From positions 1-23,935 of the IMG/VR virus record IMGVR_UViG_3300048587_000721: DNA of 23,935 bases. One strand, 5' to 3'. Below are positions 5,972 to 23,935 of this stretch, one piece after another (position 1 is the stretch's first letter; every line of letters begins with the position of its first letter). Source of the stretch: a virus. The notes beneath the pieces are model-generated. The model ran no database searches and was not told the DNA's origin. It was given only the letters and a program-made list of their open reading frames with translations. Both the position numbers and the translations under genes were made by a program.

Positions 5972-7344
<1,373 letters not shown>

Positions 7345-7345
<1 letters not shown>

Positions 7346-11433: not shown

Positions 11434-11723
11434 TATGTCCTCACCAGCGGCTTTTCCTGGGCCAGGGCGAGATCAACTTCAGAGGTCCCATTTCCTGAGA
11501 GGAAGATACCTTTAACCTCATAGACCTTGCCGCTTTTGACTCTTGTCACTTCATCCATTTCGCTCATGAGCGCGGCATCGTCATCGTCAACCAAAAGATG
11601 AATGGTCCGCGAATATCCGCCCGGACTGATGTTTCTGTCCGATTTAACGTCAAACTCCGTAAAACCGGCCAAAAAACTCCGTCCCTTGTGGGTAAATGGT
11701 TCGGAAAGTTCAGGAGGCAACAT
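11430..11723 (-). CDS. Putative head-tail joining protein (FII-like connector)
   Basis: 97 residues directly after the capsid gene. It is a small, beta-rich, acidic protein. The pattern 'vllvddd-Aal....D.v...g..YeVkgi..dg.g...l.La' (LVDDDDAALM, GKVYEVKGIFLSGNG, SEVDLALAQ) is like lambda gpFII-type head-tail connectors, which end the head before tail joining. The ATG at 11723 follows GGAG by 7 bases and overlaps the capsid stop by 14 bases. Lambda FII is 117 residues. The match is by pattern and place rather than strong identity. Confidence 0.55.
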   Translation of the reverse strand: MLPPELSEPFTHKGRSFLAGFTEFDVKSDRNISPGGYSRTIHLLVDDDDAALMSEMDEVTRVKSGKVYEVKGIFLSGNGTSEVDLALAQEKPLVRTY

Positions 11724-12747
11724 TGATCAGCTCCGCGCAGTTGGGATCGAAGCTACCGAGAATGGGTGCTGACTGAAGCTCAACAAAGCGCGTGCTCGGC
11801 GACTCCACTTCCCAGGATTTCATGAAAACCTGATTCGCAACGAGTTTTGCCTTGAGATCCCAGATGGCACCAAACATCTGCACGCCATGGATGTCTCCTG
11901 TGGTCAGAAGCATCTGCTTGGGACCGATGAAGGGGTTGCCCTCGGGGTCCTTGGCTTCGAGCTTGAAAAAATCGACGTTTCCGAAGTTTCCGACATAGAC
12001 GAGGTTTTCAAAGGACTGCAGGCCTGGTGAAAGCCTGAGCCGCACCTCGGCATCGCGTCGGAAGTCGGAGACAATTTCCTTCAGCTCAAGATTGCGAAGA
12101 AGCATCTCCTCGGCATCGGAACCAATCCAGGCGATATTGGGACTGGTGTTCCGGCGGTTCTTTGAAGCCATATTCGAGCGGCGCTTGTTCAAAAATTCGC
12201 GCATCTTGAACTCGGGACTGGCCCAGGAGTTGTCACCGGAAAGACTGATATTCAGGGATCGGTCGCGGCCAAAGTCGAGCTGTTGGTCGATGCCATCACC
12301 TTTGACCGTCAACTTTCCGGTCTTCACCAGCTCGGCCGCCATCAGCTCCATGCGGTTGCGCCAGCGATCCTTGAGGCGTCTCAGATCCTGAGCCAGATAA
12401 TATTCAAGACGCTGCATGGGCGAGTATTCGCCGCCAAACTTCTCGCCAGGAATACGGGAAAAGCCAAGGTCGGGTGTCAGGTCGATTTTCTCTTTGATGT
12501 AACCCGGTTTGAATTCGCTCGTCTCATAGCCTTCGCGGCCAAAGGTCGGCGACTCACGCCTGGGGCTTACAAAAGGCGAGGCGCCCTTGGTCTTTCCAGG
12601 AACATCATCAAAGTAAACCTTCTCGCTGTTCGATTGGATCACGGGATACTTTGAAAAAAAAGTATCGAGGAAAAGTGCAGCTTCCGGGACAATTTGATCA
12701 AAAACGCCGGCAAGGTAGTACGTGCCGTAGATATCAAGGTTCGCCAT
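11710..12747 (-). CDS. E: Major capsid protein (lambda gpE family)
   Basis: 345 residues; lambda gpE is 341. It forms the HK97-fold shell. The family features are visible: FLDTFFSKYPVIQSNSEKVYFDDV (the 'lf......f.te.v.id' region), a long segment with ...QRLEYYLAQDLRRLKDRWRNRMELMAAELVKTGKLTVKG..., which matches 'i.....r.E...a..L.tGk..v.g', and the C-terminal VESPSTRFVELQSAPIL, matching 'dPs....l.qSaPlpv'. The start overlaps the decoration gene stop (TAATG). Decoration-capsid order is as in lambda (D-E). Confidence 0.92.
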   Translation of the reverse strand: MANLDIYGTYYLAGVFDQIVPEAALFLDTFFSKYPVIQSNSEKVYFDDVPGKTKGASPFVSPRRESPTFGREGYETSEFKPGYIKEKIDLTPDLGFSRIPGEKFGGEYSPMQRLEYYLAQDLRRLKDRWRNRMELMAAELVKTGKLTVKGDGIDQQLDFGRDRSLNISLSGDNSWASPEFKMREFLNKRRSNMASKNRRNTSPNIAWIGSDAEEMLLRNLELKEIVSDFRRDAEVRLRLSPGLQSFENLVYVGNFGNVDFFKLEAKDPEGNPFIGPKQMLLTTGDIHGVQMFGAIWDLKAKLVANQVFMKSWEVESPSTRFVELQSAPILGSFDPNCAELINVAS

Positions 12748-13136
12748 TATTTTTCGCCCTTATTGATGAAGATGCCGCGAGCCGCCAGATCTTCGACCAC
12801 CGAGGCCATCGTGTGGCCCTTTCCGATCGTGAGATCGAGCCAGAAGGCTGCGCACTGCCGGTAGATCTCGCCTTCCTTGTCACCGTCTGTCGCGTCGATG
12901 TCCTGCTGCAAAATGCAGTAAGCTTTTTCGCTGCCGTCCGTGACCGGGGTTTCGTCATCATTTTTTGCGGCGCAAAGCACAAACTTCCCGTTGGCCTTTC
13001 TTCCGAGGATTGCTCCCATGGGGAGCTTCTGGCCACGTTCGATGATGACCGAATCCCGCCGAATCTGTTCGTGACCAAGCCTAATGTCCCTGGGAACAAA
13101 GCTTGCGATCTTTCTGAAGCCTGGTTGATAGTTCAT
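12747..13136 (-). CDS. Head decoration protein (lambda gpD-like)
   Basis: 129 residues; lambda gpD is 110. It stabilises the expanded capsid. The segments LPMGAILGRKANGKFVLCAA and KAYCILQQDIDATDGD match the pattern 'l..GtvLgk..tG.y......g.....gIl....da' of the family, followed by AAFWLDLTIGKG near the end. The ATG at 13136 overlaps the protease stop (ATGA), and the stop overlaps the capsid start. The placement between the S49 protease and the capsid gene is as in lambda C-D-E. Not to be confused with the P2-type gpD at the left end of the window. Confidence 0.85.
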   Translation of the reverse strand: MNYQPGFRKIASFVPRDIRLGHEQIRRDSVIIERGQKLPMGAILGRKANGKFVLCAAKNDDETPVTDGSEKAYCILQQDIDATDGDKEGEIYRQCAAFWLDLTIGKGHTMASVVEDLAARGIFINKGEK

Positions 13137-14353
13137 TCGATCCCCCGTAGCTTGATGGTGCCGGTCTTTTGGAGCATGGAAAAGGTGGCCTTGAGCCGCT
13201 CATCGAGCGACTGACCGCCTTCAGTCCGTGCCATTTCCTTTGGCAGCGTATCGAGCCCCGAAAGCTGACTGTCGTCGGCTTCCTTTGAATCTGTCTTCGC
13301 CTTGAGGGGATTTTTCTGGGCCTCCTTGATGATGGCGGCCATGGCCTCGTGAGCCGGCATACCGCTTTCCACAAGCCCTTTGCAGAACTCATCAGAGACG
13401 AGGCCTTTGGCGCTTTCACGAATCGAGTTCACGCGTTTTTGCTCGGCATCGAACTTTTCAAGCACCGATGCTGCGCCGAGATCCTTGAAATGCTGCGCGA
13501 TATCGGGGTGCTTTTCCGCGATGAATGAAGCCGTAATGGCTTCCGTAGTTACAGCCACTTTGTTTTCTCCTAGTATTGCAATGACGTTTTCCAGGGTTGA
13601 AATCCCATCGACAAGGCCCTGCTTTTTGGCCCTTTCACCGACAAAAACAGCTCCCTGCCCGTAGTTTTTCATGACGCTGTCCGGGCTTATGCCCCGGTTC
13701 CGTGCGACCTTTTCGATAAATATTCCGGCCAGGGCATCCGCTCTTTCCTGCAGAGCCTCGGCTCCCTCCGGCGTTCCAGGATCACGGTTTTTGTTGGGGG
13801 ATTGACTCGCCACGATGCGGATTTCACCCTCCGTTTCGCCGGAAAATGTGATGATTTGCGTGCCGATGCTTCCGACAATAGCGGAGTCAGAGGCGTAAAT
13901 CCTGTCACATGCGCTGGCGATCCAATACGCGGCCGAGGCTCCGTAGTCGGAGATATAGGCCACGATTGGCTTTTGCCCTCTGGCGCTGAAAATCGCATCG
14001 GCCAGCTCCGAGCAGCCGCCGGCTTCACCACCAGGGCTGTCGATATCGAAGAGAATCGAGTGAACCGAGTCGTCGGCAAGCAGCGAATGAAAATCCCGCA
14101 TGAGCGTCTCATAGGAGGTCGCACCGCAGTGCTCGGTCATGAGGTTGGCTCGCATGAAAAGCGAGTCACGGACCGGGATGATACCCACCCCGCCCCGATT
14201 GTGGGCTTTTTGCGCTTTTTTGATGGGCTCACCCGCATATTTTTCGAGACTTCTCTCTTTTTTGCGGTTTTGCACGACCGAAACAAGACTCTTTAAAGCC
14301 TCATCAGTCATGGCCCAGCTGGATTTTGTCAGGTAACTTAGAACGTAGGACAC
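13133..14353 (-). CDS. S49-family prohead protease (lambda gpC-like), probable fused scaffold
   Basis: 406 residues. It is a SppA-type serine protease that matures the capsid. Motifs are FDIDSPGGEAGG (about 102-113), VAYISDYGASAAYWIASACD with nucleophile Ser140, and SQSPNKN, where Lys188 is the likely general base. Residues from about 270 are charged and helical and may act as scaffold, as in lambda C/Nu3; this is an inference. The start is GTG 14353, preceded by GAGGT at about 5 bases; an in-frame ATG at 14311 has no good ribosome site. It is the first gene after the operator-like repeat at 14.4 kb, with 107 bases separating it from the portal stop. Confidence 0.9.
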   Translation of the reverse strand: MSYVLSYLTKSSWAMTDEALKSLVSVVQNRKKERSLEKYAGEPIKKAQKAHNRGGVGIIPVRDSLFMRANLMTEHCGATSYETLMRDFHSLLADDSVHSILFDIDSPGGEAGGCSELADAIFSARGQKPIVAYISDYGASAAYWIASACDRIYASDSAIVGSIGTQIITFSGETEGEIRIVASQSPNKNRDPGTPEGAEALQERADALAGIFIEKVARNRGISPDSVMKNYGQGAVFVGERAKKQGLVDGISTLENVIAILGENKVAVTTEAITASFIAEKHPDIAQHFKDLGAASVLEKFDAEQKRVNSIRESAKGLVSDEFCKGLVESGMPAHEAMAAIIKEAQKNPLKAKTDSKEADDSQLSGLDTLPKEMARTEGGQSLDERLKATFSMLQKTGTIKLRGIE

Positions 14354-14358
14354 AGGCT

Positions 14359-14379
14359 ACCTCGCGTTAATCACGAGGT
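14359..14379 (-). promoter_or_regulatory. Hairpin that can cover the protease ribosome binding site
   Basis: ACCTCG (14379-14374) can pair with CGAGGT (14364-14359) across a 9-base loop. The second arm contains the GAGGT that serves GTG 14353, so the structure could reduce initiation. It is a small hairpin and could be chance. Confidence 0.35.
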
Positions 14380-14417
14380 GAACATAACCACTTCGGAAAG
14401 CGTGTGGGAAGAGCCTG

Positions 14418-14441
14418 GGTGCTCACAAATTAGTGAGCACC
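14418..14441. promoter_or_regulatory. Operator-like palindrome upstream of the protease-capsid operon
   Basis: Perfect 9-bp arms GGTGCTCAC and GTGAGCACC flank a 6-bp spacer (AAATTA). No T-run follows on either strand, so it does not look like a terminator. It lies about 65 bases before GTG 14353. The same half-sites occur at 19012-19044, before the terminase operon, which argues for a shared DNA-binding protein. Confidence 0.65.
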
Positions 14442-14500
14442 GGGAGTGTTGACATTCGTTTCAAGTCGGTTTAGATTGCTCAACTTTTTCGGAATTTGGT
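14433..14500. repeat. Direct repeat, copy 1 (partner at 19036-19102)
   Basis: From GTGAGCACC through TTGACA to GGTTTAGATTGC and ACTTTTTCGGA, this aligns with 19036-19102, with about 50 of 68 columns identical by eye and two single-base gaps. Bases 14461-14500 are also the 3' end of the portal gene (KVEQSKPT, stop). Copy 2 is not in a portal gene. Both copies are in the same orientation. Confidence 0.7.
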
Positions 14501-15996
14501 GCAAAAAATGATTTTTCCTCCTCCAACTCGCGCTTCAGCTTATCGAAATCGCGGCCGCGTCCCTCAACGATCGAGCGGCGCGAGTCAAAGCCGTTTCTAA
14601 CGTCCACCTCATGGGCCTTGGCATCCTTCAAGGGATCAATTGACTCCATTTCGCTTCCACACCACTGCGTTCGGAGCCAGAGCTTTCGTTTCAGTGGACT
14701 CTCGAAGAAGCCGGGAGCCTCCAGCATGCCCGAGCGAACCGCGTCAGCTATGACCAATTCCCACACCGGCTGGCAAAATGCGGAGACGAGCCAGGCCCTC
14801 CTCGCCTTGAATGCCTTCCAGGCCTCCAGAATTGCCCCTCTCGCTGCCGAATAGGACGACTGGAAGTGTTGCGTGAGGACTTCGTAGGGAAGCCCCAGAC
14901 CAATCCCTATTTGCTTGATCACAGCCTGGACAAAAGGGTCGTAGTTGGAGTTAGGCCGTCCAGGAGCAGCCGTGATGACTTTTTCGTTTGGCAAAAGCTC
15001 GACAATGGTCCCCTTGGTCGCTTCGATCGTGTTCGATCGCCGTTCTGCTGTGGAGGCACCCCCGTGATCATCACGGGCGAGGTGCGCCTGGGAGCGGTTG
15101 CCAAAGGTTCCGCCGGTTTCTGTCGTAATGAACATGGAATAGTAGGCGTTGATAACCGCGGCCGCGATCTCAGCCTCGGAATACCGGGAAATCTGTTTAA
15201 ACTTCTCGATAATGGGAGCGAGAAGTGGCTCTCCGCGACTCTGTCCAATCAGTCGCTGCTGAAAGATATGAAGAGCCAGCGGATCGCCATCCCCATCAAA
15301 GCGAGGAACGCGCACTGTCTCCGTGCCCAGAAAAAGATTTGAACCCGGCTTGGTCACATGAAAGGCGACGGGAGCCCCATTCCGAAACTCCACCCCCTCG
15401 CGGATATCAGCGTCCGGATTCACGTTTCGGGTGGGATTCCGAAGTCTCGATCCGTCAATCAGCTGAATTGAGACAGGCAGGACTGCATTGGGTCTTTTTG
15501 AAATTCGCCGCACAGCAAGGCAGTCGCCATCGAGGAAGGCGGCGCGGAGCACCTGGGCCTGCATGAGGGGAAAGCTGGCGATCCCGTGAAAATCCGCCGT
15601 ATCACTTCCCATGTGCATATCGAAGATGGTTTCCGCCATCTGCTCAAACTTTCGGGCACGCTTTTCCGTGACTCCGAGGAGTTTATGGTCAATGCGTGAC
15701 TGCGGGCGCAGGCCGTCCGAGACAACGTTTGTCACATAGTTTTCGATGGCGCCGCGGGCGAGGCCTTCGTTTCGATCGAGGTCACGCGACTGATCCCGAA
15801 GCGTGCGCATGGCGCCCAGCAGAGCATCGTCCGTGCTTCCCGATGCCGGAAACCAGGCTGATGTTGCCGAATTTTCACGGGATGTGGAGCGGTAGGGAGC
15901 ATCCGGACCGCGAAAGATAGGAATGGTATCCCATGCGTCAGATCTGGCGGCTTTCATTCTGGCCCTTGCCTGGGCCTTGTTAACGAGGGATCGCAT
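14461..15996 (-). CDS. Portal protein (lambda gpB family)
   Basis: 511 residues from ATG 15996; lambda gpB is 533. It forms the dodecameric DNA entry ring. Supporting motifs are LRDQSRDLDRNEGLARGAIENYVTNVVSDGL (family 'lra.sRdl.rNnp.a..ai......VvG.Gl.p'), ..LDGDCLAVRR..., the VEFRNGAPVAFHV segment (G Vef...GrpvaY.v), and LPYEVLTQHFQSSYSAARGAILEAWKAF ('g.sYe.ls.df...nySSaRa.lle.wr'). The frame also opens at GTG 16011, but GGGGGTG 6 bases before 15996 favours the ATG. It overlaps the connector gene upstream by 17 bases. Confidence 0.92.
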   Translation of the reverse strand: MRSLVNKAQARARMKAARSDAWDTIPIFRGPDAPYRSTSRENSATSAWFPASGSTDDALLGAMRTLRDQSRDLDRNEGLARGAIENYVTNVVSDGLRPQSRIDHKLLGVTEKRARKFEQMAETIFDMHMGSDTADFHGIASFPLMQAQVLRAAFLDGDCLAVRRISKRPNAVLPVSIQLIDGSRLRNPTRNVNPDADIREGVEFRNGAPVAFHVTKPGSNLFLGTETVRVPRFDGDGDPLALHIFQQRLIGQSRGEPLLAPIIEKFKQISRYSEAEIAAAVINAYYSMFITTETGGTFGNRSQAHLARDDHGGASTAERRSNTIEATKGTIVELLPNEKVITAAPGRPNSNYDPFVQAVIKQIGIGLGLPYEVLTQHFQSSYSAARGAILEAWKAFKARRAWLVSAFCQPVWELVIADAVRSGMLEAPGFFESPLKRKLWLRTQWCGSEMESIDPLKDAKAHEVDVRNGFDSRRSIVEGRGRDFDKLKRELEEEKSFFAPNSEKVEQSKPT

Positions 15997-16186
15997 GGAT
16001 AACACCCCCACCGTTTTGCCGTCTGATCGCCGTTTTCAACTTCATCTCCCGATCATAAAGGTCCTTGAGCTTTGCCCGCACCACATTCCGGCGATTCTGG
16101 TTCACCTCAATATCGATCTCCTGACCACCTTCCTCGATCCTTGCAATCGCCCGCTGGACCGAGTCCAGCTGCTCCTCAAGTGTCAT
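15980..16186 (-). CDS. Head-tail joining protein (lambda gpW-like)
   Basis: 68 residues, exactly the length of lambda gpW, and in the same place between large terminase and portal. gpW closes the portal and prepares it for tail joining. The pattern 'T.eEqL......i..i..G........n......v...L..L......' and a basic C-terminal tail (KLKTAIRRQNGGG) fit the family. ATG 16186 overlaps the terminase stop (ATGA). The identity is supported mainly by size, pattern and synteny. Not the same as P2 gpW, the baseplate gene at 9867-10178. Confidence 0.8.
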   Translation of the reverse strand: MTLEEQLDSVQRAIARIEEGGQEIDIEVNQNRRNVVRAKLKDLYDREMKLKTAIRRQNGGGVIHAIPR

Positions 16187-18051
16187 ACCTTGTTCCTTTC
16201 CTCGGCCAGCTTTTCAAGCTGCCCGCAGATGTCATCAATATTCTGCCCCATGAATTCACGCGCGGCGTCCGCGTATCTCATACAGTCGTGAGCGTGATCG
16301 TCGATCCCTGGCGTTGTGTAATATGCGATCTGGTCCTTGCCATCACGCTTGACCCACTTGCTTTTGGGAGCGGTCAGCTCCTTATAGAAGCTGTCCTTGA
16401 GCCCGGGCCTAAAGTGCAGAAGACCCGGGCCACCATAGGGCATGGTGATGCCGTTCCGCGCGGCCGTGCGCATCTCCTCCAGTTTTTTCTGGCAGCGGCG
16501 GAGGCACGAGAACAGGCGGCCGTGCGTGGCGAGCTTTCCGACCGGGAAAAGGTGAATCTCAGCCTCTTTTTTGTAGCTGCTCGATCCGATGATTGGCGCC
16601 GCGCGATCCTTTGCGCCCTTGATGGGAAGAATGAACTCATCCTCGCGGCCGCGGCAAAAGTCGTAAACCGCGCCCGTATTATGCCCACCCGTATCGATGC
16701 AAGTGGCTGCAATTCTGAGTTTGAGCCGGCCGTTCACCGAATGTCCATGGATAAACTCTCGCTGAAGGATGCAGTAAAGCTCCAGCCAGGTGGCCTCCTG
16801 GTTACTGTCGCCATTGATTCTTTCGTGGAGGATGACCCAACGCTCACCATCGCGGCCCCAGCCCATGATCACAAGGTCCACATGATCGGGGTGCGTATCA
16901 ACGCCGGCCGTGAGATAGCCGATTCCTTTGGGAAGACGTCTATCCTCAGGCCAGTCAGGGAGTTCGCAGTTTCTAAGATCATTCGGATCGATCGGCTTCA
17001 TGGCCGCGTCCTCATAGGGAAGACCAAGGCAGTTGTTCACATACACTTTTTTTTCCTCCGGATTGTCCGCCCCTTTGATGAGCTGCTCACGTGTGCTCTT
17101 CCAGGACCACATGCCGACCGGGGCATAGAGCGCCGGCAAATGGTAGCCGCGGGCATTGGCGATCCGTGGCGTCACGGTCGGGCGCCATTCGCCGCCGGCG
17201 AGCATCTGAGTCTTATCCTGCTCGTGATGCGCGGCGTGGCATTTTTCGCAGCGAAAGACCGGGATTTCGAGAGAGAAGTCGATTCCATCTTCGGTGATGA
17301 GCTGCATGTGACCGCAGGCGAGGCAGGGAACAAAATACTTCCGCTGATCTGTGAGAAGGTACTCGGCATGGATCCGGCACTGACCGGCGATGGACGGCGT
17401 GGAGACGAAGAATAGTTTCTTTCTGCCTTCGTATGTCGATGTACGGCCCACAGCCAGGCCCACCGGGTCGCCGTTTTTCTGGGTATTGGCCGCGTATGCC
17501 GACACTTCGTCAAAAAAAACGATCTGAAATGCATGGGAGCGCAGTGCGGACATCGAGTTGGATGTACCCAGAAAGAGGCAGCCACCCGGGAACGACTTGG
17601 TAAGAATGCTGTTCTTGCTTTGTGGTTCCGCCCCACCATCCGCCTGGATCCGGTTTCTGAGATCCCGGCAGTGTGCAATAATCGGGTCAATCCGATGCTG
17701 GGAAAAGGTCTTCCGCAACTCATCATTCGGCTGGACAATGAGCATATAGGTCGGAGAAGCCCCCATAACCCACAGCATCAGACTGAGCCCAGTCAGCGTT
17801 CCGCCTGTTTGCCAGCCCTTCATCAGCACAGTTTTTTCGATACCGTTATCAGGATTCAGCGAATCCAGAATCTCGTGGAGGTAGGGCGTTTTCGTAAAAT
17901 TGACAAGCCCCGGAAACGGGTTGCCACCGGGCGGAAGGTAGAGATTCTTCTCGGCATACTCACGAATTGAGACAAACTGAGGAGCCCGGAGTCGTGTCTT
18001 AAGCAAAGAGCGGATATCACCAAACGGTTCCAAGGCGTGAACAGATGCCAT
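16183..18051 (-). CDS. Terminase large subunit (lambda gpA / GpA family)
   Basis: 622 residues; lambda gpA is 641. It is the packaging ATPase and nuclease. N-terminal ATPase: residues about 77-85 (MKGWQTGGT) stand at the Walker A position and IVFFDE (177-182) at Walker B, with a coupling motif in FVSTPS (about 215-220). A zinc-ribbon insert is formed by Cys243-x2-Cys246 and Cys268-x2-Cys271. Nuclease domain: GVDTH with Asp385, a CIDTGGHNT segment and the C-terminal DDHAHDCMRYADA (family 'nHa.Dc..Ya.aA'). The Walker A-like segment departs from the common KSAQvGkT form. The ATG overlaps the preceding stop (TAATG). Confidence 0.94.
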   Translation of the reverse strand: MASVHALEPFGDIRSLLKTRLRAPQFVSIREYAEKNLYLPPGGNPFPGLVNFTKTPYLHEILDSLNPDNGIEKTVLMKGWQTGGTLTGLSLMLWVMGASPTYMLIVQPNDELRKTFSQHRIDPIIAHCRDLRNRIQADGGAEPQSKNSILTKSFPGGCLFLGTSNSMSALRSHAFQIVFFDEVSAYAANTQKNGDPVGLAVGRTSTYEGRKKLFFVSTPSIAGQCRIHAEYLLTDQRKYFVPCLACGHMQLITEDGIDFSLEIPVFRCEKCHAAHHEQDKTQMLAGGEWRPTVTPRIANARGYHLPALYAPVGMWSWKSTREQLIKGADNPEEKKVYVNNCLGLPYEDAAMKPIDPNDLRNCELPDWPEDRRLPKGIGYLTAGVDTHPDHVDLVIMGWGRDGERWVILHERINGDSNQEATWLELYCILQREFIHGHSVNGRLKLRIAATCIDTGGHNTGAVYDFCRGREDEFILPIKGAKDRAAPIIGSSSYKKEAEIHLFPVGKLATHGRLFSCLRRCQKKLEEMRTAARNGITMPYGGPGLLHFRPGLKDSFYKELTAPKSKWVKRDGKDQIAYYTTPGIDDHAHDCMRYADAAREFMGQNIDDICGQLEKLAEERNKV

Positions 18052-18344
18052 TAAACATTCCCAGTGCGTTCGGGTTCTTCATCGTCATCATCCGGTCTTA
18101 TTGCTTCGATAATAGCTCCCCTTATATCGCCATATTTATAGCGAGGAACGCCGTACCTATCGACTCTTGTATCGTCCTTCGAGTGCCATTCAAAAATTCC
18201 ATCATAAAAAACAACTTTGAGGCCAAGACCTTCATGAACAACAGATTTGTGAAATCTTCCTTGGCGGATTTCCTCCATGACGGCGGACGCATTCACGCCA
18301 ACTTTTGCAGCAAATTCCTCAATGGATACCAGCTTCCTTTTCAT
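18051..18344 (-). CDS. Small winged-helix DNA-binding protein, paralogue of the terminase small subunit N-terminus
   Basis: 97 residues from ATG 18344 (MKRKLVSIEEF), which follows AGAAGG by 7 bases; the frame opens upstream at 18413. Residues about 5-55 (VSIEEFAAKVGVNASAVMEEI, ending FYDGIFEWHSKDD) align well with the start of the next gene upstream (ASISEFARIVGVNHAAVIRAV ... GCYEWIANRND). This is the Nu1/excisionase-type winged helix. The coiled-coil half of a small terminase is absent; the C-terminus is acidic (PDDDDEEPERT). It overlaps the small terminase by 26 bases and the large terminase by TAATG. It may assist DNA recognition by the terminase or regulate the operon. The role is not established. 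Confidence 0.75.
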   Translation of the reverse strand: MKRKLVSIEEFAAKVGVNASAVMEEIRQGRFHKSVVHEGLGLKVVFYDGIFEWHSKDDTRVDRYGVPRYKYGDIRGAIIEAIRPDDDDEEPERTGNV

Positions 18345-18954
18345 GGGCTTGCCTTCTCGTTTCCGCATTTTCCTGATCCCTTTTATATTGTTCATCAAGC
18401 ATATCGGACGCATGATCCAGGGCCTTGCAAACCTCTTTCCGAATAGCCAGGCGTATCTGGATCACAGCGTCGTCAATTTCCTTTTGCTTTTCCTGAATTA
18501 AGCCCTCACCCTGATCTCGAATGAGACGCAGAAAGTAGGGTCGGGTGAGTTCGGAGGCGAGCAAAGGCACCTGGAGAAAGGTGTCCCGACAGGTCTGTAT
18601 GCTCTCGCACACCTGCCTTTCAAAGTTGGCCAAGGGGATCAACTCCTCACAGCTCTTCCGATACTCGATCCTCTTCATCAAAGCCGCGTAGTGACGATCC
18701 ATCTGAGCTGATTTATCCCGGGACATAATGCCTGGAGTCGCGGAAGTCGATCGTGTACCGCCTTTGCTATCGTTTCGGTTCGCAATCCACTCGTAGCACC
18801 CGGTGGCAATGATGATCCTTGTCTTGCCATCCTGATCTGTGATCACGGATTCCGAAAGCCGAACACCATCCCTGACGGCACGGATTACAGCTGCATGGTT
18901 GACACCAACGATTCGGGCGAATTCGCTGATTGATGCTGTCATTTGCTCTTCCAT
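18319..18954 (-). CDS. Terminase small subunit (Nu1-like)
   Basis: 211 residues; lambda Nu1 is 181. It recognises the packaging site and recruits the large terminase. Residues about 5-58 form a winged helix (ASISEFARIVGVNHAAVIRAV, with YEWIANRN after the wing). A middle region with LIPLANFERQVCESIQTCRDTFLQVP matches the Nu1-family 'elv....v......l....r..ll.lP', followed by a charged helical C-terminus (QENAETRRQAHEKEAG). GGAGGAGG stands 6 bases before ATG 18954. It is the first gene after the control region and is directly followed by its short paralogue and the large subunit. Confidence 0.85.
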   Translation of the reverse strand: MEEQMTASISEFARIVGVNHAAVIRAVRDGVRLSESVITDQDGKTRIIIATGCYEWIANRNDSKGGTRSTSATPGIMSRDKSAQMDRHYAALMKRIEYRKSCEELIPLANFERQVCESIQTCRDTFLQVPLLASELTRPYFLRLIRDQGEGLIQEKQKEIDDAVIQIRLAIRKEVCKALDHASDMLDEQYKRDQENAETRRQAHEKEAGIH

Positions 18955-19011
18955 AGGAAGCCTCCTCCAGGAATCCCTACATCAAATGCAAACAACAAAT
19001 GAAGCTTCCAG

Positions 19012-19044
19012 GTGCTCACAAATTTGTGAGCAGCTGTGAGCACC
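19012..19044. promoter_or_regulatory. Operator-like palindrome with an extra half-site, upstream of the terminase operon
   Basis: TGCTCACAAATTTGTGAGCA (19013-19032) is a perfect 20-bp palindrome. A third half-site, GTGAGCACC (19036-19044), repeats the right arm exactly 10 bp further on, one helical turn. It lies about 58 bases before ATG 18954. The half-sites match those at 14418-14441. Confidence 0.65.
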
Positions 19045-19102
19045 CCAGAATATTGACAAGCTATCCAATCAGGTTTAGAGTGCGCGACTTTTTTGGATTT
19101 GG
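19036..19102. repeat. Direct repeat, copy 2 (partner at 14433-14500)
   Basis: See copy 1. Read on the minus strand, part of it would translate as KVAHSKP, against KVEQSKP at the end of the portal, with third-position changes among the differences. This copy may therefore be a relic of a portal gene 3' end, or an independent copy of a control element. Confidence 0.65.
19053..19081 (+). promoter_or_regulatory. Candidate plus-strand sigma70 promoter
   Basis: TTGACA (19053-19058) with a 17-base spacer to TAGAGT (19076-19081), four of six matches to the -10 consensus. Copy 1 of the repeat has the same layout (TTGACA 14449-14454, TAGATT 14472-14477). The palindrome would be upstream of the -35, at an activator position. 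The nearest plus-strand gene starts about 460 bases on. No transcript is shown by the sequence. Confidence 0.35.
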
Positions 19103-19114
19103 GTTTAAGTGGCC

Positions 19115-19420
19115 GTCACAGCGCCATTGATTACACAGAGCTTGATGGTCAATGGTTTGGTGGAATTCGATTCCGACACAACTGTCACAAAAAAAGGGCC
19201 AAAAGTCACAACGCCTGAAAAACGACGAAACCATACAAGCCTTTCTGTATAAGGCTTTCAAGACATTAAAACTCTGAACATGATGTGACTTGTGACGCAA
19301 TTTTTTTTTCATCGGGAGCGAGAGGGAGAAGTTGATCGTCAACCTTACGGGGTAGGGTGCCAGGAAGGACCCATAGCCGCTTTAGTACATTTGGCCGTCA
19401 TTTTGTTGTGATACTTCACA
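19115..19420. promoter_or_regulatory. Cluster of TGTGAC/GTCACA half-sites
   Basis: GTCACA at 19115, 19184 and 19205, TGTGAC at 19284 and 19291, and the inverted pair TGTGA-TACT-TCACA at 19407-19420. Five exact hexamers within about 180 bases is far above chance. They lie upstream of the plus-strand gene at 19542 and could bind a regulator. The inverted pair resembles a CRP-type site but has a spacer of 4, not 6. Confidence 0.4.
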
Positions 19421-20042: not shown

Positions 20043-23000
20043 TCAAATCTTCTCGCCAATACGCTTGATCAGTTCAGGGACACTTAACGGCATCAGCATG
20101 AGCCTGTTATCGTTTGCCTCGACACCAAAATATCGGGAAGAGTAGCGTATGGTCCAGGTGGAGAACACTACATAGCCATTGCCTGGATCAACCGTAGCTG
20201 ACTCAAAGAAGTTCTGCAGATGGAAGGCTTCGCCCAGCGGAATCAGCTCGTTCCCATTCAATCTCCAGAGTTTGACCTTTTGGTCATCCCCAAACGTAAT
20301 CAACTTGTCACCGACCGATACCAAGCCCTTAATCTGCCCATCGTGCAGCTGAATATTTGCAGGCTGCTTGTCGATCATTACGACTCGACCTGAGGAGAAA
20401 CCCAAGGCGCGCCCACCATGAAGGTAGACCCTGTCCATTCCGCTCACTGTCTTGACGGCCTCTTCAGTCAGCTTTTCAAGGTCAATGGTTTTGAAGCCAT
20501 TCTCAGTTGCACATGTGAGCAGGCCTTCGCTTTGGTTCAGCTCAGGTGCAAGAGCTGTATCACAGCCGGAAAATGTCTTGAGAATATCCTTATTCTTTCC
20601 GACCTGGACATTACCATCAAACGAGACCATCACATACTTATCGCCAAAGCTATAGAGTTTCAGAAGGTCCGGGAAATTGCCAAGGTTTGCTACCTTGTTT
20701 GAGGCATCGACAGCGATAACGTCTCTTTCCTCGGTAACAAGATAAATCGAATCCCCGCAAATCATCTGCGTGGTTTTCCCAGCTCCCTGGCTGATCACAT
20801 ACGAAACTTTGCCTTTGCTAAACGACTTGACCACACCGGAATCAAAGCCGATCAGAAGCGAGTCGTCCTTCCTCTGACAAAGGTTCAGCGCAAAACCATC
20901 GTTGGCAGCCTTTACATTCACCAGCTCCTTCTCGACCTTGCTGGCGACATCCAGACTTCTGATCTGGCCGTCTCTACTCAGATACTGGACGATTTTGCCG
21001 CCAGAAGTTGCAACATGGCCGACTATTCGATCACGCATTCTACTGGTCTGGTGAATGGTAATGGGTGCGAGCAGAATCTCCGCTATGAGACCACTATCGG
21101 TCAAGACCAGGACAGGCTTGGTGATATCAAACGAATTCGTCAGAAATTTGATGGGACGACCTGCTGTCGATGGCAGCGCGACCTTATGCAGATCCCGACC
21201 GGCACCTTTCCATACCCTTACTGTCCCATCATTGGATGCCGTTGCAACGTATTCATCATCTTTGGAATACGTGACATCGAGGATTGCATCCTCATGACCT
21301 GTCGAGGATCCCAATGGCGAACCATCGGCACCATAGCGTTTCAGGATGCTGTTGTTGGCTATAGAAAGATATTTGGCATCATGTGAAATAGAAACAGCGC
21401 TCACGGGCTGCTCCAATTTCTCAACGAACACCTCAGCAATCATAGGTTTCAGGTCGATCCGCTTCATCTGTCCGGCCGTGGACCAAAACACTATGAAGTC
21501 TTTAGCTGGCGAAAACTGAACCCCATCAATCCCCCCAGGAAAGTCAAACTTTTTAAGCTCCGTGGAGTCCTTGGAAAAAATCCTGATTTCTGGGGCTACT
21601 GCGTACACAGCCACAACAGAAGAGTCTTCAAGTACATGCGCAAAACGCAGGTCTTTGGTTGGTATCGAGTAAGCTTTTGCGCTACCACCATCCTTACCGA
21701 AGACAGTAATATCTTTCTCGGAATAGGCAACAAAACTCCCTGAGTTCTCATCAAAATTTAGAGGTTTTGCCCCCTCTGCGAGCTTACCATAGGGGTTTGC
21801 TTTCTTCATGCTTGTGGCCAGGTCAATTGCCTGATATTCGCCGTCCCGTCCGATGACCACGATACGCTTGGACGCCTTGCTGCTGAATATCGATCGGACT
21901 TTGAAGTCAATTTTTTCTGTACCAACTTCAACTTTCTTATCAAGATCAAATGCAATCAGGTCATTTCCAGATCTCGACATACAGACAAAGGTCGCATCTG
22001 ACAGCGCAACCAGGGACGGGCTGCAAAGCTTGCTGCCATTTATGTCTCTCACAAGATTCAAAGAAGTTGCGGAGTTTACGGCACCACTCAGCAAAGAGTC
22101 GTGTAGAGCGGTCTTTTCGTCTTCCTGCTTCAATTCAGTGTCGTAAATGTTTTGCGAAGCCTGAAGCTGACTTAGGGCTGATTTGCCTTGCCCGGACTTC
22201 GCCGCAGACGCTGCTTCAACCAATAGCGTCTTTGCTCTATCAATGGCCTTCTGGTTGAACACCTTGATCCTGGCTTTGACTTCATCCGAAGTATTTCCAG
22301 CCTTATCGACAGCCTTGAACCGCAGCGCAACAACACCCTTTTCAGGAGCCTCATACTGTCCATCAAACGCCACGAACTCACACTTGCCTTCGGATGATTC
22401 AACACAATAATACTGCTGATAGTCCGAAGAATCCGCCACCTGTGGAGCAATTTTCTCTTTCGGGTTGACCTGTGGCAAACCCGCTGTTCGCGGCAAATCG
22501 AGGGTGATTTGGGGCTTGGTACGGTCGACCACCATATCCAAAGTTCCCTCAATGGGACCTTTATAATCAGGAGTGAAGATATCGTGAAACTGATACTTTA
22601 CGCCGTAGCTTCCCTCTTTTGAATCTGCAACGCTGATTCGAGTATCGCTGATCGCATCTCCAGGCATGATCACACGACTTCCGGGCTTTCCATCGACCGT
22701 AAAAGTCACGAATCCTAGCAATTTCTTGTCCAGGCTTGGATTGACCACCGGAGAAAAAAACTCTTGAACGAAAACTTTTGGCTCCTGGCTAAACTGCGGA
22801 CGCTCGAATTCGCCTACAGTCAGGGTTTCCATCACTTGCTTCGGCGAGCTTTGAAGCTTCGCCAAGGTAGCTTGACGATGATAAAGGTTGTTGTTAACCG
22901 TTCCGACAACCAGAATAAGAGAGTCGGAGTTTATTTCACTCTTTGAGGCATAGACACACCCCTTTTCGCTGATTTGAAGCCGCTTGAGCTTTTCACCCTT

Positions 23001-23213
23001 CACGTCAAAAGCGTGAAAAGCCCTGGGATCGATAGCTACGTTATCGCCAAAGGTCAGCTTTGCATATTCGGCGTTCCGATCATTCAACTGACACTCGACC
23101 ATCAGCTGGTCATTGCCGTTTGAAAAACTGCTGCAGCCACCTATTAGCACGACCAAACAAATCTTCATCATATTCAAGGCTTGTGTCTCCAGGCTGACAA
23201 AGGACCAACTCAT
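20043..23213 (-). CDS. Large putative lipoprotein with Ig-like and WD40-type propeller regions
   Basis: 1056 residues. A hydrophobic segment MMKICLVVLIGGC ends in a lipobox (I-G-G-Cys27 in the longer reading), predicting a lipid-anchored envelope protein. Residues about 30-330 are beta-rich and include a bacterial Ig-like segment (ALRFKAVDKAGNTSDEVKARI). An Ala/Gln-rich helical link of about 60 residues follows (RAKTLLVEAASAAKSGQG). The rest, about 640 residues, is repetitive beta structure with clear WD40 blades (GHEDAILDVTYSKDDEYVAT, ASNDGTVRVWKG; FGDDQKVKLWRLNG) and could hold two propellers. No enzyme motif is visible. Start 23213 has AGAGG about 10 bases upstream; ATG 23171 would give a shorter signal. 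It lies between phage genes, so it may be cargo, but host origin is not excluded. Confidence 0.85.
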   Translation of the reverse strand: MSWSFVSLETQALNMMKICLVVLIGGCSSFSNGNDQLMVECQLNDRNAEYAKLTFGDNVAIDPRAFHAFDVKGEKLKRLQISEKGCVYASKSEINSDSLILVVGTVNNNLYHRQATLAKLQSSPKQVMETLTVGEFERPQFSQEPKVFVQEFFSPVVNPSLDKKLLGFVTFTVDGKPGSRVIMPGDAISDTRISVADSKEGSYGVKYQFHDIFTPDYKGPIEGTLDMVVDRTKPQITLDLPRTAGLPQVNPKEKIAPQVADSSDYQQYYCVESSEGKCEFVAFDGQYEAPEKGVVALRFKAVDKAGNTSDEVKARIKVFNQKAIDRAKTLLVEAASAAKSGQGKSALSQLQASQNIYDTELKQEDEKTALHDSLLSGAVNSATSLNLVRDINGSKLCSPSLVALSDATFVCMSRSGNDLIAFDLDKKVEVGTEKIDFKVRSIFSSKASKRIVVIGRDGEYQAIDLATSMKKANPYGKLAEGAKPLNFDENSGSFVAYSEKDITVFGKDGGSAKAYSIPTKDLRFAHVLEDSSVVAVYAVAPEIRIFSKDSTELKKFDFPGGIDGVQFSPAKDFIVFWSTAGQMKRIDLKPMIAEVFVEKLEQPVSAVSISHDAKYLSIANNSILKRYGADGSPLGSSTGHEDAILDVTYSKDDEYVATASNDGTVRVWKGAGRDLHKVALPSTAGRPIKFLTNSFDITKPVLVLTDSGLIAEILLAPITIHQTSRMRDRIVGHVATSGGKIVQYLSRDGQIRSLDVASKVEKELVNVKAANDGFALNLCQRKDDSLLIGFDSGVVKSFSKGKVSYVISQGAGKTTQMICGDSIYLVTEERDVIAVDASNKVANLGNFPDLLKLYSFGDKYVMVSFDGNVQVGKNKDILKTFSGCDTALAPELNQSEGLLTCATENGFKTIDLEKLTEEAVKTVSGMDRVYLHGGRALGFSSGRVVMIDKQPANIQLHDGQIKGLVSVGDKLITFGDDQKVKLWRLNGNELIPLGEAFHLQNFFESATVDPGNGYVVFSTWTIRYSSRYFGVEANDNRLMLMPLSVPELIKRIGEKI

Positions 23214-23272
23214 TTTGAGGAGGCCTCTTTAGCATAATTGCACGTGATATTCCAGAGCCTTAAATACGAATG

Positions 23273-23287
23273 ATTACGCGGCGTAAT
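23273..23287. promoter_or_regulatory. Short perfect palindrome upstream of the lipoprotein gene
   Basis: ATTACGC-G-GCGTAAT: 7-bp arms around a single base, about 60 bases before the lipoprotein start and between it and the methyltransferase stop. It could be an operator. No strong promoter hexamers were identified around it. Confidence 0.35.
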
Positions 23288-23362
23288 GGCTACCAATTCC
23301 TTGAAGGACATGGCTTTTAGACACCGATCGGCATAAGCAAGATGACTGGCAAGCCGGCTACT

Positions 23363-23935
23363 TTAACAGGAATTCCCCCACATCAAGCTGCGGAAAGCCG
23401 CGCGGACCTGGGCCGGTACCACGCCGTTGCCCAGGGCTTTAAAGCGGTCCATCCGGTGGGCACACCCATCAGCCACTCGACGAATTCCACATTCAGAAGC
23501 CCACCCACCGAATCGCTCAAAGGCAGGGAATTGCGATTTTTTCCCGCCTGCCCCGGCTTCCGGAAGTCCTTGGTCATCGGCGTTGGCCAGCAATTCTGCC
23601 TCGCCATTTGATGAAGTGACGGGCGCCGCTTCGCTGAGTCGCGGCAGGAACGATTGCTGCCGGAATGCTGAGCCATTGGGGTTGGCAGCAAGGAGGAACC
23701 ACCTGTTCCGGATGTGCGGCGCACCGACCTCTTGAGCAGATAGCATACGCCACCGGCAATCATACCCTCGGCTGGCAAGTTCCTGGAGAACACGATCCAG
23801 GCCTCGGGTTCTGATAGCCGGCACATTCTCAAAGAACAGGAAACTCGGCTCGATTTCCTCGACGAGACGCATGATCTCGAAAAAAAGACCTGAGCGCTTT
23901 CCCGCCAGGCCTTTGCCAGTACCTGCGCAACTGAT
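23363..23935 (-). CDS. Cytosine-C5 DNA methyltransferase (partial, N-terminus outside window)
   Basis: 191 residues are visible; the frame is open to the window end, so the true start lies outside. The first residues (ISCAGTGKGLAGKRSGLFFEIMRLVEE) fit the stretch just after the catalytic Pro-Cys loop (motif IV), so the Cys itself is not seen. Motif VI is FLFFENVPAI and motif VIII is QEVGAPHIRNRWFLLA. The C-terminal motifs IX-X give MDRFKALGNGVVPAQVRAAF. Between VIII and IX is a short variable region, where target recognition would lie. It modifies cytosine in DNA, probably for protection against restriction. Phages often carry such orphan enzymes in the early region upstream of the terminase. 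No cognate endonuclease is visible here. Confidence 0.9.
   Translation of the reverse strand: MSCAGTGKGLAGKRSGLFFEIMRLVEEIEPSFLFFENVPAIRTRGLDRVLQELASRGYDCRWRMLSAQEVGAPHIRNRWFLLAANPNGSAFRQQSFLPRLSEAAPVTSSNGEAELLANADDQGLPEAGAGGKKSQFPAFERFGGWASECGIRRVADGCAHRMDRFKALGNGVVPAQVRAAFRSLMWGNSC

Follow-up and report, generated by a model that had tools for sequence, protein, structure and literature searches.

A palindrome that occurs twice in the virus-derived DNA analysed here (the window, 23,935 nucleotides, IMG/VR record IMGVR_UViG_3300048587_000721) is most likely, as far as sequence comparison can indicate, the docking site of a virus-encoded switch protein for the particle-building genes of both head blocks. 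The whole explanation, which is probably correct, is that an activator-dependent late regulon operated by an Xre protein lies behind both palindromes. A dimer of a phage-encoded protein would bind each palindrome, whose centre falls near -55 relative to the predicted RNA start and just upstream of a poor -35 element (CTTC). The bound activator would recruit host RNA polymerase to a TATnnT -10 box, and the terminase-portal and protease-capsid blocks would be switched on together, as would a papain-like peptidase gene in several relatives. The activator itself would most likely be a small Xre/HTH_3 protein.

Copy 1 of the palindrome reads GGTGCTCAC-AAATTA-GTGAGCACC. Copy 2 reads GGTGCTCAC-AAATTT-GTGAGCA and is followed by one extra half-site, GTGAGCACC. 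A search of the window for GTGCTCAC-N6-GTGAGCAC with up to three mismatches returned two matches, which are the two palindrome copies, and none elsewhere; dinucleotide shuffles gave a mean of 0.11 matches and never two. The original prediction described a 9-bp-armed palindrome within a longer repeat, and this repeat is real, with a local alignment score of 37 between 14418-14500 and 19011-19104 against a mean of 10.8 and a maximum of 17 in 300 shuffles. Its placement 58-66 nt upstream of leftward late genes was likewise borne out by measurement, the distance from palindrome end to start codon being 66 nt for the S49 head protease (GTG at 14353) and 58 nt for the small terminase (ATG at 18954). 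The identities proposed for the two blocks, protease-capsid and small terminase, agree with the profile matches (Table 1). The virion genes of the window are lambda-like and all leftward: small terminase, gpA, portal, S49 protease, D and E.

Table 1. Features of the two late-gene control regions and the genes around them, in window coordinates.
Feature	Position	Strand	Basis or detail
Major capsid protein E	11710-12747	-	PF02924, PF03864 (jointly for D and E)
Head decoration protein D	12747-13136	-	PF02924, PF03864 (jointly for D and E)
S49 head maturation protease, first gene of the protease-D-E block	13133..14353	-	phrog_53, PF01343
-10 TATGTT, copy 1; predicted RNA start near 14374	14381..14386	-	TAnnnT conserved at +33/34
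-35-like CTTCCC, copy 1	14406..14411	-	near-invariant CTT at +9 to +11
Palindrome copy 1, predicted activator operator of the protease-capsid operon	14418..14441	-	9-bp arms, 6-bp centre; centre about -55
GTCAA, copy 1, 14 nt upstream of palindrome	14449..14453	-	17/19 sites
Portal protein, between the two promoters	14461..16011	-	PF05136
Portal gene 3' end, duplicated as non-coding DNA in copy 2	14464..14500	-	portal tail ...SEKVEQSKPT-stop vs copy 2 ...SKKVAHSKPDW
Large terminase gpA, block behind copy 2	16183-18051	-	phrog_57, PF05876, PF20454 (jointly with small terminase)
Small terminase, block behind copy 2 (16183..18954)	18319-18954	-	phrog_57, PF05876, PF20454 (jointly with large terminase)
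Weak -10-like TAGGGA, copy 2; predicted RNA start near 18967	18974..18979	-	position by homology
-35-like CTTCAT, small-terminase promoter, copy 2	18999..19004	-	expected position after palindrome
Palindrome copy 2 with extra half-site GTGAGCACC	19011..19044	-	palindrome 19011-19032, half-site 19036-19044
Duplicated portal-tail DNA with GTCAA, upstream of small terminase	19045..19104	-	alignment of copies
GTCAA, copy 2, 25 nt upstream of palindrome	19053..19057	-	element count over sites

Several other leftward genes are found in the window. A 120-aa helix-turn-helix protein (18051-18413) overlaps the end of the small terminase gene; it shows a weak likeness to the small terminase N-terminus and was not found in the relatives searched. 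A 1056-aa protein (20043-23213), encoded in the interval that separates the small terminase promoter from a DNA methyltransferase gene, has weak WD40/beta-propeller matches, a possible lipoprotein-like N-terminus and no PHROG match, and its gene is a possible accessory (moron) gene. A probable tail-fibre gene (5972-7345) contains collagen-like Gly-X-Y coding repeats, in units of 9, 36 and 45 nt, at 6351-7007.

The portal gene's 3' end makes up the outer part of copy 1 and is matched in copy 2, and in the close relative G001 the two copies have little in common apart from the palindrome itself. Part of the window repeat is thus a duplication of the portal-protease junction, possibly one that arose through recombination at the shared palindrome. 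Homology between the window copies stops at the palindrome, and the promoter core lies outside it. Function would reside in the palindrome and promoter, not in the duplicated portal tail.

A query with the protease led to 80 viral loci, and contigs of up to 80 kb were then retrieved in pieces. In at least 17 relatives (at least 49% protease identity), the protease start is preceded, at 60-125 nt from the palindrome end, by a palindrome of similar geometry and differing arms. The sites consist of 7-bp arms of the form TGnnnnn, 4-7 bp apart, with a subtype-specific sequence: TGCTCAC in the window and G001, TGTCCGC in most other relatives, TGTTCGC in G011, TGTTTAC in G006, G007 and L025, and TGTTTCT in G012 and G013. 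Each of the relatives examined in full has one to three strong sites per contig, only at late-gene starts. In G000, G001, G003, G004, G005, G008, G009, G010, G015 and L018, these precede the small terminase and the protease; G002 has a further one ahead of a papain-like C1 peptidase, and in G006, G007 and G011 the sites stand before the protease and the C1 peptidase. A single site was found in each of G012 and G013, and G003 carries a degenerate site before the C1 peptidase as well. No scatter of the motif over the genome, the outcome that would have spoken against a shared operator, was seen; the window is part of a phage, and this result rests mainly on the relatives.

No clear palindrome of this type was found at the protease in L021, L022 and L027. 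Among protease relatives further removed (L029 onward), some show inverted repeats ahead of this gene; a second copy with the same arms elsewhere is generally missing from this set and is present in L045, L052 and L076. The DNA of the repeat had no match among known phages and plasmids, whose terminase relatives are below 60% identity, and the best protease relative in GTDB genomes is at 47%.

The distribution of sites bears on whether the repeats are instead packaging sites (cos or terminase-binding) or recombination sites. One copy does stand before the small terminase gene, the location of cos in lambda-like phages, and window copy 2 arose by a duplication that ends at the palindrome. However, a packaging site should be single, whereas up to three sites per contig occur at separate loci, the further copy lying 4.3-54 kb away before the protease or peptidase. 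Moreover, GGTTGACGATCAACC, a separate conserved element that most relatives carry ahead of the small terminase, makes the better cos candidate, and a packaging or recombination role for the repeats is highly improbable.

The palindrome GGTTGACGATCAACC is distinct from the late operator and occurs upstream of the small terminase in G004 (2110), G005 (35146), G006 (24705, minus strand), G007 (23027, minus strand), G010 (7176), G011 (55572), G012 (27287, minus strand) and G015 (1424). A degenerate version, TTGACCATCAA, is present in the window near 19140. This element is a candidate cos or terminase-binding element.

Within one phage, the arms at separate loci differ by 0-1 mismatch. The 60-nt flanks within one phage give no alignment, with best local scores of 6-8.5 in seven relatives; the window flanks reach a local score of 19, on the upstream side only. 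The arms differ between phages. That the arms are matched within one phage while the flanks are unalike points to a trans-acting reader, and that the arm sequence is kept, rather than mere pairing, points to a protein reading DNA rather than to an RNA stem. The palindrome of copy 1 would fold as RNA to -18 kcal/mol (z -5.2), as might be expected of a hairpin acting as a terminator, attenuator or processing site. Such a role is nevertheless hard to credit: the predicted RNA start comes only after the palindrome, which is not followed by a terminator-like T run and has no Rfam family match, and its arm sequence itself is constant among independent sites of one phage, although an RNA stem would need pairing alone.

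The DNA-reading protein could in principle be a host regulator, since host control of prophage genes is common and the TGTCCGC type is found in several divergent phages. However, a single IMG genome number (2667527381) covers two contigs whose palindromes differ: L008/G003 has TGTCCGC and L024/G006 has TGTTTAC, and matching copies of each occur only inside the phage concerned. Two arm types under one genome number suggest that the reader is phage-encoded, and a host reader is very unlikely. The proposal that a phage-encoded late regulator acts on both blocks, which had been made from the repeat alone, is favoured by the placement of sites in the relatives, by the matching of arms and by the fixed distance to the promoter.

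The promoter layout was assessed across 19 non-redundant sites. In order, and pointing into the late gene, these contain GTCAA, the palindrome, a CTTC-type -35 and a TATnnT -10. Counted from the palindrome, positions +9 to +11 almost always read CTT (17/19, 19/19 and 18/19 by position). TAnnnT at +33/34 occurs in 12 of the 19 sites (shuffle mean 0.66, maximum 5 in 10,000), and GTCAA is present within 60 nt upstream of the palindrome in 17 (shuffle mean 1.2). With -10 boxes 32-33 nt after the palindrome, the palindrome centre falls at -54.5 to -55.5 from the predicted RNA start. The -10 of copy 2, TAGGGA, is a poor match to TATAAT. The spacing between GTCAA and the palindrome is mostly 23-25 nt, and 14 nt in two sites; across the late sites these distances are about one helical turn apart.

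On this layout, the palindromes are probably operators of activator-dependent late promoters, a judgement made jointly with that on the Xre activator. It may be asked whether the palindrome is instead a repressor operator, through which a lysogeny repressor silences both late promoters in the prophage. Xre/HTH_3 proteins of phages mostly carry annotations as repressors or plain regulators, and a repressor too would need matched arms at several promoters. However, the palindrome occupies about -64 to -45, upstream of the -35 and with no core-promoter overlap, and this position speaks for activation rather than repression. Poor -35 elements are also what activated promoters should have, and the Xre gene is found in the interval between endolysin and minor-tail genes rather than next to an integrase. 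Repression is, on balance, improbable.

The same sites speak to the divergent plus-strand promoter raised in the original prediction, for which TTGACA-N17-TAGATT would be the conserved feature. In the window, copy 1 matches a sigma-70 promoter at 10 of 12 positions, and copy 2 has TTGACA-N17-TAGAGT. The plus-strand TTGACA is, however, GTCAA in reverse. While the reverse complement, TTGAC, is conserved, a correctly spaced -10 is present in only 3 of 17 independent sites (background 6.5%), two of which are the window's own duplicated copies. In copy 1, furthermore, the RNA would run antisense into the portal gene. This part of the prediction was not supported, and a divergent promoter deserves very little credence.

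The best candidate for the activator is a small Xre/HTH_3 protein of 74-91 amino acids, whose gene lies between the endolysin and minor-tail genes; from sequence, it is expected to bind the palindromes, to activate transcription from the predicted RNA starts and to be present in the window phage. The gene was found in all ten contigs that cover the locus (G002, G003, G005, G006, G007, G011, G012, G013, G014 and G015), and it is the sole identifiable transcription-regulator family among the proteins universal to the eight larger contigs, families being judged by inspection. All five Xre proteins tested match PF13560 and PF01381 above the cut-offs. An AlphaFold2 model (pLDDT 91) places the segment that covaries with the arms in the third helix, residues 29-36. 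Among solved structures, the closest in fold are ClgR and the controller proteins C.BclI, C.Esp1396I and C.AhdI.

The recognition helix tracks the palindrome better than the remainder of the protein does, within the limits of few Xre lineages and about three helix states. The helix YS[RP]GYIxDIES[GS]RR is found with arms TGTCCGC or TGTTCGC, YSPGHLCLIEQGKR with TGTTTAC, and YSRTYIANIEAGRR with TGTTTCT. The Xre proteins of G002 and G005, both with TGTCCGC arms, share 39% identity outside the helix and 13 of 14 residues inside it; those of G002 and G006, with different arms, share 58% outside and 7 of 14 inside. Because the identities inside and outside the helix run in opposite directions in these two pairs, the pairing of helix and arms exceeds mere relatedness. 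The helices of G003 and G011 are identical despite a difference of one base in the arms and of one in the gap.

Neither the window nor its nearest relative, G001, extends as far as the Xre locus. A search for the window phage's own Xre protein by way of its methyltransferase reached a 32-kb relative that ends before the locus, and more distant phages. An Xre protein of the TGCTCAC type, which would be encoded just beyond the end of the window, is therefore a prediction; its helix is expected to differ from both YSxGYIxDIESGRR and YSPGHLCLIEQGKR.

It is unlikely that the same regulon is read by another phage protein: a 305-aa helix-turn-helix protein, a small MarR-like winged-helix protein or a conserved protein beside the endolysin. 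Several phages do encode more helix-turn-helix proteins near the late genes, and no function is known for two universal small proteins next to the endolysin. However, the 305-aa protein turned up in G002, G003, G006 and G007 but not in G005, the winged-helix protein is found only in G001 and G007, and neither of the two universal small proteins has a detectable DNA-binding domain. Covariation of helix and operator is on hand for the Xre protein alone and for none of these candidates. The small terminase, also a helix-turn-helix protein, was considered as the reader and rejected, as 9 of 12 helix residues are shared by G001 and G010, which have different arms, and 5 of 12 by G003 and G005, which have the same arms; this also tells against the repeats being packaging sites.

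If the Xre protein is the activator, a further and more doubtful idea is that it forms part of a compact two-part code, in which the small activator and its palindrome change together and give prophages in one host private late-gene switches. The constant GTCAA would face the same side of the helix at either distance (14 or about 25 bp) and might serve all of them via a common co-factor. Such a code, if true, could explain how related prophages of one genome avoid triggering each other. The joint variation of operator arms and recognition helix would also supply natural pairs for studying how Xre proteins read DNA.

The late genes of lambda are expressed from one promoter by Q-dependent antitermination. 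The phages described here resemble lambda in their head genes and in switching these on late, but each block would have its own predicted activated promoter. A closer parallel in layout is the P2/P4 Ogr-Delta system, in which the late dyad is said to have been placed near -55 by Christie and Calendar in 1985; the centres predicted here are at -54.5/-55.5. In both cases several late operons have a common dyad upstream of the promoter. In P2, four late promoters with TGT-N12-ACA are under a small phage-encoded activator (PMC3931495). The sites described here do not have this form, consisting instead of subtype-specific 7-bp arms 4-7 bp apart with an added GTCAA element, and the activator would belong to the Xre/HTH_3 family. 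The virion genes differ as well, being lambda-like (gpA terminase, lambda-family portal, S49 protease, D and E). No Ogr/Delta zinc finger (PF04606) was found above the cut-off in eleven records, several of which are fragments; G001 contains one sub-threshold match, of 12 bits. Since both the site form and a zinc-finger activator were looked for and neither was found, the system is like the P2 Ogr late regulon in layout and is not a member of it.

Other models are more distant. The Mor site of Mu spans 16 bp, contains 5-bp inverted repeats and has its centre at -43.5 (PMC4390567). Like Mor/C, the protein proposed here would be a phage-encoded dimer that acts on an inverted repeat and activates a sigma-70 promoter; unlike it, the centre is predicted at about -55, and the candidate belongs to a different protein family. 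The C proteins of restriction-modification systems are small activator-repressors, and C.PvuII is an activator at one operator and a repressor at another (PMC3695507). Together with ClgR they are small Xre/HTH_3 proteins and provide the nearest solved structures to the candidate. Their targets, however, are restriction-modification genes, whereas those proposed here are phage late genes at two or three loci, with dimer binding putative. A survey of the open-licence literature for an Xre late activator of phages found nothing relevant. The regulon would provide a concrete late-gene switch, in which Xre takes the place of Ogr, Q or Mor/C, in a group of phages where no studied model was found.

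Other elements were seen near the late genes of the relatives. A conserved repeat, TTAACnnCGGGGTTAA, lies directly before the protease start codon in G007 (17899, minus strand), G011 (61297), G012 (21397, minus strand), G013 (13835, minus strand), L021 (7983) and L025 (1365), and TGCGGGGTTAA is found in reverse before the small terminase too in G011, G012, G013 and L021. These may represent a second shared control element. A lone TGTCCGC half-site with GTCAA at the usual distance occurs on the minus strand in G004 (40832) and G005 (4051), where it adjoins a separate ATGTT-type operator near another Xre gene and possibly marks a third regulated gene.

ArdA-like antirestriction genes are located upstream of the small-terminase promoter, on the minus strand, in G001 (28754-29245), G004 (211-759) and G005 (31237-31785), and G001 also has a weak Lar-like match (26379-26738). 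ParA-like and ParB-like genes were recognized by eye in G004 (22399-23433 and 33047-33922, both on the minus strand), suggesting that there is a phage-plasmid among the relatives.
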